Assembly (NCBI RefSeq): GCF_019711315.1
Contig: NZ_CP081294.1
Coordinates: 2,542,001 to 2,606,000, forward strand
Direction of reading: 5' to 3'
DNA from: Qipengyuania gelatinilytica
GTDB lineage: Bacteria; Pseudomonadota; Alphaproteobacteria; Sphingomonadales; Sphingomonadaceae
Length of the DNA stretch: 64,000 nt
In this document: positions 12,401 to 20,298 of the stretch, one piece after another
Layout: each line of letters begins with the position of its first letter
Position numbering within the stretch: position 1 is the first letter of the stretch
Notes under the pieces: generated by a model
The model's input: the letters and a program-made list of their open reading frames with translations, nothing else
Told to the model about the DNA's origin: nothing
Database searches by the model: none
Translations under genes and position numbers: made by a program

Positions 12401-13102
12401 ATGCGCCTTAGTAGTTTGTCGATACCTCTTTTCGCCCTGACACTGGCCGCTTGCGGCAGCGAGGTCGACGAAGCTCCGCCGCAGGCCGAAGCTGCGGCAG
12501 CCAGCGAGGCGCCGGAAGAGATCGTCGTCGAAGGCGAAGAGCGCCGCATTGTCGCCTTCGGAGACAGCCTTTTCGCCGGATATAATCTGGCAGAACACGA
12601 GGGTTATCCCGAGCGGCTGCAGCGTGCCCTCAGGCAGGCGGGCATCAATGCCACCGTGGTTGATGCCGGCGTTTCGGGCGACACCAGCTCCGGCGGGCTG
12701 GAGCGGATCGGCTTCCTTCTCGACCAGCAGCCGGTAAAGCCGGACTTGTTCATCCTGGAACTGGGCGGCAACGACATGCTGCGCGGTATCCAGCCCGCAG
12801 CTACCCGTTCGAATTTCGAAGGCATGCTGGCCGAATTGCAGAGCCGTGACATTCCGGTCCTGCTGATGGGAATGCGCACGCCGCCGAACTACGGGCCGGA
12901 ATACCAGCAGCAGTTCGACGCGCTCTATGGCGATCTCGCGCGCGAATATGGCGCGCAGCTGGTGCCCTTCTGGCTGGAAAGTATCTACCAGTCGCCCGAG
13001 CTGTTCCAGTCGGACAGGATCCATCCCACGGCAGAGGGTATCGATCTTTTGGTCGCCGATACGGTAGACGATGTGCAGGCGGCCCTGCCGGACGCAGGCT
13101 AG
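12401..13102 (+). CDS. tesA: SGNH arylesterase / lysophospholipase, TesA-like lipoprotein
   Basis: A 233-residue GDSL-family hydrolase. The N-terminus is a lipoprotein signal (LALTLAAC type), followed by an acidic Ala-rich linker. Block I is AFGDSLFAGYN with the nucleophilic Ser, block III is LELGGNDML with the oxyanion Asn, and block V is DRIHPTAEG with the catalytic Asp and His. It hydrolyses acyl or aryl esters in the periplasm, like E. coli TesA. It is divergent from the YbbA/YbbP-like transporter genes, an arrangement shared with E. coli, and its stop overlaps the convergent recF stop by four bases. The extended linker and lipid anchor are differences from soluble TesA. Confidence 0.9.
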   Translation: MRLSSLSIPLFALTLAACGSEVDEAPPQAEAAAASEAPEEIVVEGEERRIVAFGDSLFAGYNLAEHEGYPERLQRALRQAGINATVVDAGVSGDTSSGGLERIGFLLDQQPVKPDLFILELGGNDMLRGIQPAATRSNFEGMLAELQSRDIPVLLMGMRTPPNYGPEYQQQFDALYGDLAREYGAQLVPFWLESIYQSPELFQSDRIHPTAEGIDLLVADTVDDVQAALPDAG

Positions 13103-14178
13103 ACCCGCTCGACGCTTCCGCCCGTCACGCGCCAGACTGCCGCTTCGCTAGAGATGCTGTCGAAGGGGGGCAGCTCGGTCCCCGTCATCCAGACCTGTGC
13201 GCCGCTGGCCGCAAGCTGGTCGAACAGCGCAGCGCGGCGGACCGGATCGAGATGTGCGGCGACCTCGTCGAGCAGCAGGACGCCGGCGCGCCCCTGTGCC
13301 GCGAGCGCCGCGTGAGCGAGCGTGATGGCGACCAGCATGGCCTTCTGTTCACCGGTCGAGCTCTGGGCGGCAGGCACGCGCTTGGCTGCGTGAACCACTT
13401 CCAGCTCGTCGCGGTGCGGGCCCGAGAGGGTGCGCTGCGCTGCCCGGTCCCTCGCGCGCCCGTCGAACAAGGCCTGCGACAAGGCTTCGGCACTGTCGGT
13501 TCCTCCCGGCGCATAGGTCAGGGCGGGGCGGGCGAAAGGCTCGCTCGGCATATGGGCGATGCGGCTCATCAGAGTATCGACCAGCATCGCGCGTCCCGCG
13601 ATCAGCTTTCCGCCATGCTCGACCATCTGCGCCTCGATCGCGTCGAGCCAGGCGCTTTCGGGCGCGCGGTCGTCTGTCAGCAGGCGGTTCCTCTCGCGCA
13701 GCGCGGCTTCATAGCGTGACGCATAGGCGGCATGCGCGGGATCGAGCGCCAGCGCCATGCGGTCCATGAACCTGCGCCGGTCGGCAGCAGGGCCGGTGAA
13801 GAGGCCGTCCATTGCCGGGGTCAGCCATGTCAGCGCGAGCCATTCGCCCAGAGCAGTCGCGCTGTTTTCTGCGCCATTGATGCGTACGCGCCGGCGCGCC
13901 GGGTGATCGCTTTCGGTATAAGTGCCGAGCCGGATCGCCTCGCCGTCGTCCTGCCTGAGGTCCGCGCCGATGGCGAAGCCGGTGTCCGCATCATGCTGGA
14001 CCATATCGGCCAGCGCAGCCCGCCTCAGTCCGCGCCCGGGTGCCAGCAGCGAGAGCGCCTCGAGCACATTGGTCTTTCCCGCGCCGTTCTCCCCCACAAG
14101 CAGGTTGAACCGCGAGGTGCCCGCCAGTTCGGTGACCTCGTGATTGCGGAAACGGGTGAGGGAAATGCGGTCGAGCAT
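13099..14178 (-). CDS. recF: DNA replication and repair protein RecF
   Basis: A 359-residue SMC-like ATPase. Walker A is GENGAGKTN near residue 33, the signature is around STGEQKAML, and Walker B is VLLLDEVAAHLD. It loads RecA onto gapped DNA with RecO and RecR. ATG 14178 begins MLDRISLTRFRNHEV, the standard RecF N-terminus; the longer open frame upstream would overlap the regulatory region of the PspC locus. There is no dnaA-dnaN neighbourhood, in contrast to many bacteria. Confidence 0.93.
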   Translation of the reverse strand: MLDRISLTRFRNHEVTELAGTSRFNLLVGENGAGKTNVLEALSLLAPGRGLRRAALADMVQHDADTGFAIGADLRQDDGEAIRLGTYTESDHPARRRVRINGAENSATALGEWLALTWLTPAMDGLFTGPAADRRRFMDRMALALDPAHAAYASRYEAALRERNRLLTDDRAPESAWLDAIEAQMVEHGGKLIAGRAMLVDTLMSRIAHMPSEPFARPALTYAPGGTDSAEALSQALFDGRARDRAAQRTLSGPHRDELEVVHAAKRVPAAQSSTGEQKAMLVAITLAHAALAAQGRAGVLLLDEVAAHLDPVRRAALFDQLAASGAQVWMTGTELPPFDSISSEAAVWRVTGGSVERV

Positions 14179-14238: not shown

Positions 14239-14257
14239 GTTGGGAATTTTCGCCAAC
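14239..14257 (+). promoter_or_regulatory. Candidate enhancer site upstream of the sigma-54 promoter
   Basis: The inverted repeat GTTGG (14239-14243) and CCAAC (14253-14257) is separated by nine bases. It lies about 100-120 bases upstream of the predicted start of the sigma-54 promoter, the distance at which PspF-type activators bind. A second inverted repeat, ATTCAG and CTGAAT, lies at 14291-14312. Their role is inferred from position only. Confidence 0.35.
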
Positions 14258-14330
14258 CTTTCGGTTTCATTAACGGAAGGCGGGCTCGCCATTCAGTTAA
14301 GAATGGCTGAATTCCGACGTTTTTCGATTT

Positions 14331-14346
14331 TGGCACGGGGGTTGCA
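14331..14346 (+). promoter_or_regulatory. Sigma-54 (RpoN) promoter
   Basis: TGGCACGGGGGTTGCA is a perfect match to the -24/-12 consensus TGGCACG-N4-TTGCA with correct spacing. It lies in the intergenic region between recF and the first 39-residue microprotein, pointing toward it. Transcription should start near 14357, just before the inverted repeat CACCGGA/TCCGGTG at 14361-14377. Such promoters need an enhancer-binding activator. Confidence 0.88.
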
Positions 14347-14360
14347 ATGCTTGGGGTGTC

Positions 14361-14377
14361 CACCGGATGGTCCGGTG
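14361..14377 (+). promoter_or_regulatory. Inverted repeat in the leader of the microprotein-PspC operon
   Basis: CACCGGA-TGG-TCCGGTG is a perfect 7-bp inverted repeat right at the predicted 5' end of the sigma-54 transcript. It could be a 5' stabilising hairpin or a binding site; nothing in the sequence decides between them. Confidence 0.5.
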
Positions 14378-14408
14378 AACAGCCAAGATAATTCAGGGAT
14401 ACAGACAA

Positions 14409-14528
14409 ATGTTCGCTTTCGACGCTTCCAACAACAAGGCCCTCGCATCGGTCTTCGCCTTCGCTGCCTCGGCCATCATGATGGCAATGGCAATCGTCCC
14501 CGCCAGCCCGGCCGGCCTCATCGCCTGA
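14409..14528 (+). CDS. 39-residue membrane microprotein A, sigma-54 operon
   Basis: An ATG at 14409 opens a 39-codon frame. The peptide has a short polar start (MFAFDASNNK), one hydrophobic helix of about 20 residues rich in Ala, Phe and Met, and the tail AIVPASPAGLIA. The second microprotein downstream has the same length, the same MF start and the same AIVPASP tail, which argues strongly that both are real genes. The sequence AGGGATACAGACAA before the ATG offers a plausible ribosome site. It is the first gene after the sigma-54 promoter and precedes PspC. I know no named family for it; a single-pass inner-membrane stress peptide is inferred. Confidence 0.78.
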   Translation: MFAFDASNNKALASVFAFAASAIMMAMAIVPASPAGLIA

Positions 14529-14568
14529 GCCTGCAGCACCCACTCATAACACTATAGGAAAAGGATCT

Positions 14569-14688
14569 ATGTTCGACCTCGAAAAATATGGCAGCAAGCT
14601 TTTCGCAGCCGCCTTCTCGCTCACCCTCTCGGCAGCTTTCTTCGCAGCCGCTATCGTCCCCGCATCGCCCAATGGAGTGCTGGCATGA
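14569..14688 (+). CDS. 39-residue membrane microprotein B, paralogue of A
   Basis: An ATG at 14569 preceded by TAGGAAAAGGATCT, a good ribosome-binding site, opens 39 codons ending in TGA at 14686-14688. The peptide starts MFDLEKYGSKLF, has one hydrophobic helix, and ends AAAIVPASPNGVLA. It matches microprotein A in length, MF start and the AIVPASP tail, but the middle differs, so it is a diverged duplicate. Its stop overlaps the pspC start (ATGA), which implies translational coupling to PspC. A function with PspC in envelope stress is inferred. Confidence 0.82.
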   Translation: MFDLEKYGSKLFAAAFSLTLSAAFFAAAIVPASPNGVLA

Positions 14689-14903
14689 CCAACCTGAAAT
14701 TCCGCGATGACAATGCCGTCAGCCCGAGCAAGACTTTCCGGCTCGACCGCACCAACGGCAAGCTGATGGGCGTATGCTCCGGCATCGGCCGCTACTTCGG
14801 GATCGACACCACGCTGGTTCGCGTCGGCTTCGTCCTGGGTACGCTGCTCGGCTTCGGCAGCTTCATCCTCATCTACCTGGCGATCGGACTGATCGCAGAC
14901 TGA
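14685..14903 (+). CDS. PspC-domain protein (phage-shock family)
   Basis: A 72-residue protein. After a short cytoplasmic start it has the PspC signature DRTNGKLMGVCSGIGRYFG followed by DTTLVRVGFVLGTLLGFG and a second hydrophobic helix ending in AIGLIAD. It sits in the inner membrane and in enterobacteria works with PspB to sense membrane stress and control PspA. Its ATG overlaps the stop of microprotein B. No pspA or pspB is adjacent, yet a sigma-54 promoter drives the operon, as in the E. coli psp operon. The short form lacks the longer C-terminal region of E. coli PspC. Confidence 0.9.
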   Translation: MTNLKFRDDNAVSPSKTFRLDRTNGKLMGVCSGIGRYFGIDTTLVRVGFVLGTLLGFGSFILIYLAIGLIAD

Positions 14904-19945: not shown

Positions 19946-20203
19946 TTAGCGGTCGATTTCTCCAGCCTCGGCCTCTTCGGCCTTCGCGGCCTCCTGCTCG
20001 TACCGGATCGCATCGAGGATCTTCGCCCCGCCGAGGAACACTGCGCCTGCGGTCGCGGCCATCAGGAGATATCCGCCGAAGCCGGGATACTGGAGCGTGT
20101 AGTTCGCGCCGCGAGTCATTGCGCCAAGGGCAAGGGCGTAGATGATCAGATACGCTTCGAAGCGCGTCTTGATCACGAACAGCCTTTTGACCTTCTTCCA
20201 CAT
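19946..20203 (-). CDS. Small hypothetical membrane protein
   Basis: An 85-residue protein beginning MWKKVKRLFVIKTRFEAYL, with two hydrophobic segments around residues 15-35 and 45-65 and a charged, Glu/Ala-rich C-terminal tail of about 25 residues. I chose the ATG at 20203, preceded by AAAGGAG; a longer frame from 20260 adds a poorly supported start. It is a membrane protein of unknown function, with no enzymatic motif. Confidence 0.72.
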   Translation of the reverse strand: MWKKVKRLFVIKTRFEAYLIIYALALGAMTRGANYTLQYPGFGGYLLMAATAGAVFLGGAKILDAIRYEQEAAKAEEAEAGEIDR

Positions 20204-20298
20204 GGGTGGCGCAAACTCCTTTCTTAACCTCTGCAACTGCAATGAGCGTGCCAGTGACACGTTCCTGCCGAGTCGCGTGGTTAATCCAGGGACGAGTG

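Follow-up and report, generated by a model that had tools for sequence, protein, structure and literature searches.

PspB and PspG are small membrane accessories of the phage-shock (Psp) response in enterobacteria; the pspG product of E. coli and Salmonella is a small membrane protein. The known Psp regulon is given in passages of PMC9604234 as pspABCDE, pspF and pspG, and parts of two surveys from 2022 and 2024 (PMC9239133, PMC11237479) describe extra or standalone PspC genes as widespread. In the same parts of these surveys, a PspF enhancer at PspA-free pspC loci is not described; neither main text contains 'Sphingomon-', the 2022 one lacks 'microprotein' and 'small protein', and the 2024 one lacks 'small membrane'. 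By title and abstract, we found no description in the open-licence literature of the operon analysed here, in which pspC follows small open reading frames (ORFs) and has no pspA beside it. The window, that is the whole stretch of 64,000 nucleotides analysed, comes from a genome with a single contig of 2.83 Mb. Its closest named matches are from Qipengyuania, and the PspC of this operon is 94% identical to that of Q. xiamenensis. The locus contains the following features:

13099..14178, minus strand: recF, divergent neighbour, start taken as MLDRISLTRF
14240..14257, plus strand: predicted PspF-type enhancer (UAS), TTGGGAATTTTCGCCAAC; its start lies 91 nt upstream of the -24 box
14305..14318, no strand assigned: palindrome-like element GGCTGAATTCCGAC, just 5' of the -24 box
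14331..14345, plus strand: sigma-54 promoter, -24/-12 elements TGGCACGGGGGTTGC, exact match
14409..14528, plus strand: microprotein 1, 39 aa, one predicted membrane helix; a similar ORF lies at each of 85 loci
14569..14688, plus strand: microprotein 2, 39 aa
14685..14903, plus strand: minimal PspC, 72 aa
14904..14963, plus strand: strong RNA hairpin after pspC, -41.9 kcal/mol, z -5.8

Results

A conserved sigma-54 promoter precedes orphan pspC

As the original prediction had read from the letters, a perfect -24/-12 sequence stands before two 39-codon ORFs and pspC, and a transcript would be expected to start near 14356. Such a site by itself proves little, because neither the window nor the genome holds an excess of them. 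Scanning with up to two mismatches gave 23 matches in the window versus 29.5 expected. Genome-wide there were three exact matches, and the pattern with one mismatch was not enriched (34+34 versus 46+32 in the reversed control). To monitor conservation of the site, we read 87 pspC loci, comprising the 30 best including our own and 57 picked by hand among the matches listed that are not beside pspF. The pattern TGGCA[C/T][G/A]N5TGC was found 185–611 nt before the PspC-coding match in 85 of them. In both site-less loci (L148 and L151) pspA adjoins pspC, and these are therefore not orphan loci. The sigma-54 site is thus kept at 85/85 pspA-less (orphan) pspC loci read in the family, own included. 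This conservation rules out a chance site, supports the proposal that a sigma-54 promoter drives the two microproteins and PspC, and provides one of the two marks that we looked for in a member of the PspF regulon, a conserved -24/-12 promoter. Across the 85 loci, the distance from the start of the -24 box to that of the first microprotein is 64–92 nt, and the start codon is ATG at 84 loci and GTG at one.

The palindrome-like element just upstream matches the consensus GGCGGAATTCCGCC at 12 of 14 positions. In 40 of the 85 orphan promoters, an element with at least 10/14 matches to this consensus begins at this position, 26 nt upstream of the -24 box. Counted at any position, such elements occur in 50/85 orphan promoters versus ∼9% of shuffles; 8/27 psp promoters have one as well. 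Elsewhere in the window, a second perfect sigma-54 site (20239–20253, minus strand) lies before a gene (19946–20203, minus strand) whose 85-aa hydrophobic product matched no Pfam or NCBIfam model. This gene occurs in 69/99 family genomes, and a site-like sequence lies upstream in 19 of 25 loci read, one of them degenerate and 117 nt away, without a PspF enhancer.

The genome carries a separate psp operon

The genome contains rpoN as well as a gene for a PspF-like activator, the two factors that the original prediction had named as worth searching for. The activator gene lies 1.5 Mb from the orphan operon, divergent from the sigma-54 site TGGCACACCCCTTGC, which is followed by a 50-aa hydrophobic ORF (the leader microprotein), pspA (PF04012), pspB (77.8 bits) and pspC (68.4 bits), the last three at C1:1021749-1023109. 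The absence of pspA and pspB noted earlier therefore holds for the orphan locus, where pspC does not have the pspA and pspB neighbours of a pspABC operon, but not for the genome. The suggestion that the microproteins take the place of pspA and pspB in a reduced or alternative module has to be abandoned, as pspF, pspA, pspB and a full-length pspC are present under a sigma-54 site of their own.

Among family psp promoters, a small hydrophobic ORF lies between promoter and pspA in all 27 that were readable, of ∼50 aa in most, and a profile of this leader microprotein gave 378 database matches. Aligned with hhalign, the orphan microproteins and the leader microprotein gave E 0.17 over 12 columns, which does not establish homology. 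In the genome's own psp operon (L004, 8135–9625), pspC is followed by five tandem small ORFs (78–104 aa), whose products resemble a helix combined with a coiled coil; only one has a PspB match, which is weak and below cut-off.

Orphan and psp promoters share an enhancer

We trained an enhancer matrix of 18 positions on 84 orphan promoters with our own locus left out (the last round used 83). Its core reads TTGG-GAAAATTCC-CAAC. In 76 of the 84 promoters, the best match starts 89–92 nt upstream of the -24 box, with a score above 6 in 75 of these; one orphan promoter, L116, scored 3.6. At our own locus, 14240..14257 scored 17.9 with the matrix from the 84 other promoters and was the top place in the window, reaching 25.9 on the other strand, whereas the next best place elsewhere scored 14.8.

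For psp promoters kept out of training, we used 27 from 30 pspF loci, leaving out L098, L100 and L104, which had no promoter-plus-pspA reading. In 26 of the 27, the match exceeded the 95th percentile of shuffles that kept pair composition only roughly. It lay 90–92 nt before the box in 24 of these 26 and 71 nt before it in L082 and L086; the remaining promoter, L106, scored near chance. Upstream of E. coli K-12 pspA, two matches lie 81 and 101 nt from the box, and their scores (12.8 and 11.2) both exceeded the 99th percentile of shuffles (10.8). The second mark of the PspF regulon, an enhancer common with the pspA promoter, was thus found in 26/27 psp promoters and at E. coli pspA. The glnK promoter and the window's other perfect sigma-54 site, before the 85-aa gene, each scored below the 95th percentile of their shuffles.

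A strong pspF match is absent from 10 of 149 family genomes (seven without any, three with only E 1e-61 to 1e-63) and present in all 85 genomes with the operon read (p 1.4e-4, not corrected for kinship). Judged from these sequence comparisons, PspF is the likely activator of the orphan operon; it is predicted in preference to another activator mainly because the enhancer is common to psp promoters. Inheritance from a common ancestor could account for the enhancer in both orphan and psp promoters even if it is not in use today, although an unused relic is disfavoured because the element has been kept across 85 genomes. The predicted regulation of the operon is well supported at the sequence level. 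The predicted enhancer at 14240–14257 is also upstream of recF, ∼60 nt from its start (14178), and PspF binding there might affect recF too.

The orphan gene encodes a minimal PspC

The orphan PspC belongs to the PspC domain family (PF04024, 63 bits versus a cut-off of 25) and falls below the cut-off of the full-length PspC equivalog TIGR02978 (56 versus 104 bits), of which it covers profile positions 2–59 of 121. It stops at the end of the PspC domain, whereas the other PspC of the genome is 125 aa long. Its structure model was poor (mean pLDDT 64.5). The overlap noticed in the original prediction was confirmed: the microprotein 2 stop and the pspC start share four bases, ATGA. The same overlap of -4 between the last microprotein gene and pspC occurs in 55 of the 85 orphan loci, and 30 lack it. 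The hairpin following pspC is possibly the operon end; it lacks a T-run, and a terminator scan found none.

Two tandem pspC genes occur in the psp operon of Polymorphobacter, Sandarakinorhabdus and relatives (L211-L213, L225, L226, L228-L230, L234, L245), and one copy is short, like the orphan, in the six loci where both were readable. We considered whether the orphan pspC arose from such a tandem copy, but a tree of both, built on 56 columns with 7 of 26 orphans past the length filter, was unresolved and supports no claim on this origin.

The small ORFs encode putative single-helix proteins

The two microproteins of our locus, first proposed to be paralogous, are 44% identical. We read 122 microproteins across the orphan loci, with lengths of 28–58 aa (35–48 aa in 112 of them). 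There is one copy at 54 of the 85 loci, two at 26, three at four and four at one; L050 is counted here with one copy, a second probably having been missed. Of the 122 microproteins, 97 carry K/R N-terminal to the helix and six C-terminal to it, which by the positive-inside rule, on which helix topology is read, suggests that the N-terminus lies inside. Across 32 related pairs, differences at codon positions 1, 2 and 3 numbered 283, 161 and 536, and pN/pS, crudely estimated, was 0.39, so that the microproteins appear to be selected as proteins. A helix and an AI.PA motif are conserved in 28 aligned sequences, and the model of microprotein 2 has a helix at residues 4–29 (mean pLDDT 72). Taken as sequences, the microproteins look protein-coding and single-pass.

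Against Pfam-A and NCBIfam, microproteins 1 and 2 matched no family at E up to 1, which sets them apart from PspB, PspD, PspG and other named small Psp proteins, and we regard them as a new microprotein family. In the database, 594 proteins matched at E ≤0.001. Among the 120 of these that were listed, at least 14 (one name incomplete) are called 'recombination protein F', with lengths of 37–72 aa and the name given in at least one source. Short microproteins with this name in public records include P0124, P0125, P0128 and P0134. The label is apparently an annotation error, presumably taken from the divergent recF.

Distribution of the operon

To delimit its occurrence, we searched sampled genomes at the level of family, order and class. 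A PspC match was found in 139 of 149 family genomes, most with two or more and about 40 with only one; the orphan operon is not universal in the family. Divergent recF adjoins it at 71 of the 85 orphan loci. Of 80 named loci, 69 have a sigma-54 site within 720 nt together with one to three small hydrophobic ORFs, and the enhancer scores above 7 in 66 of these; in two of the other three, the contig ends within ∼80 nt upstream. The 11 named loci without a site comprise ten in which pspC lies inside a pspA-pspB-pspC-pspC operon and one that runs off the contig.

The survey outside the family covered the stronger PspC matches. Of the 118 genomes in the order sample, 83 do not belong to the family, and a PspC match was found in 71 of the 83. 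The orphan operon was not found at the 62 loci read there, one per genome: pspC adjoins pspA and pspB at 61, and the remaining locus, at a contig end, has pspB. In the class sample of 289 genomes, a match outside the family occurred in 21, and the operon was not found at the 23 loci examined (21 best and two second matches), all with pspA beside pspC. In four loci from other alphaproteobacterial families (L278, L280, L286, L293), a small hydrophobic ORF of another kind, whose end resembles W(L/I).F.AG...G, lies between a sigma-54-like site and pspA.

Discussion

We consider it probable, on sequence grounds, that the PspF regulon includes the orphan locus as a second operon besides the psp operon. 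Under envelope stress, PspF freed from PspA would bind the enhancer at 14240–14257 and drive sigma-54 RNA polymerase at 14331–14345. A single transcript would then yield one to four microproteins of ∼40 aa, two in this genome, each with a single membrane helix and its N-terminus predicted inside, and a minimal PspC, which may be translated by coupling from the last microprotein. Comparison of sequences establishes the elements on which this proposal draws, namely the promoter, the near-fixed common enhancer, the conserved coding ORFs, the overlap and the co-occurrence with pspF. What the products do is harder to judge: by analogy with PspB or PspG, there is about an even chance that the microproteins lie alongside the short PspC in the membrane, where they would tune or anchor the Psp sensor or effector complex. 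More tentatively, the Psp response in Sphingomonadaceae (GTDB) may be microprotein-led, in that each of the two PspF operons opens with a small single-helix protein, and the peptides, in up to four copies, may be dedicated membrane-stress components working with minimal PspC.

The placement of the small ORFs between promoter and pspC, and the ATGA overlap, which is often accompanied by a GGAG- or GGA-like stretch within the last codons of the preceding ORF, would also fit cis leader peptides that are themselves inert and whose translation opens or couples the pspC start. Such leaders are unlikely, however, given the selection on amino acids, the conserved helix and AI.PA motif, the presence of one to four copies where a leader needs only one, and the absence of the overlap from 30 loci. 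As the genome holds eleven sigma-54 activator domain matches, seven of them strong, the promoter might instead answer to another enhancer-binding protein, of NtrC type or other, and not be psp-regulated. We rate this slightly lower still, since the enhancer matches the pspF-pspA region and not the glnK or 85-aa gene promoter, and pspF accompanies the operon in every genome read. A role as holin-like peptides or small hydrophobic toxins relieved by PspC would also fit their length, single hydrophobic helix and tandem copies, but the fixed recF neighbourhood, the stress-type enhancer and the upkeep of the operon in the family make this very improbable.

Membership in the PspF regulon, our preferred reading, predicts a further operon of that regulon for a family of mostly environmental bacteria. 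It supplies candidate stress microproteins open to direct testing, an enhancer motif with which PspF targets can be predicted, and an example of two pspC paralogues predicted to answer to a single regulator. The locus resembles pspG of E. coli and Salmonella in that a PspF-dependent promoter (here predicted) away from the psp operon precedes a gene for a small membrane protein. Unlike pspG, it has one to four single-helix proteins of ∼40 aa before pspC, often coupled to it, and these are without Pfam-A or NCBIfam match. With the E. coli-type pspF/pspABC system, it shares a -24/-12 promoter, a PspF-like enhancer and the PspC domain, whereas pspA and pspB are missing from the locus and the psp operon lies elsewhere in the genome. 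The psp operons themselves also differ: in the annotated E. coli K-12 region no small ORF lies between promoter and pspA, whereas each of the 27 family psp promoters has one.
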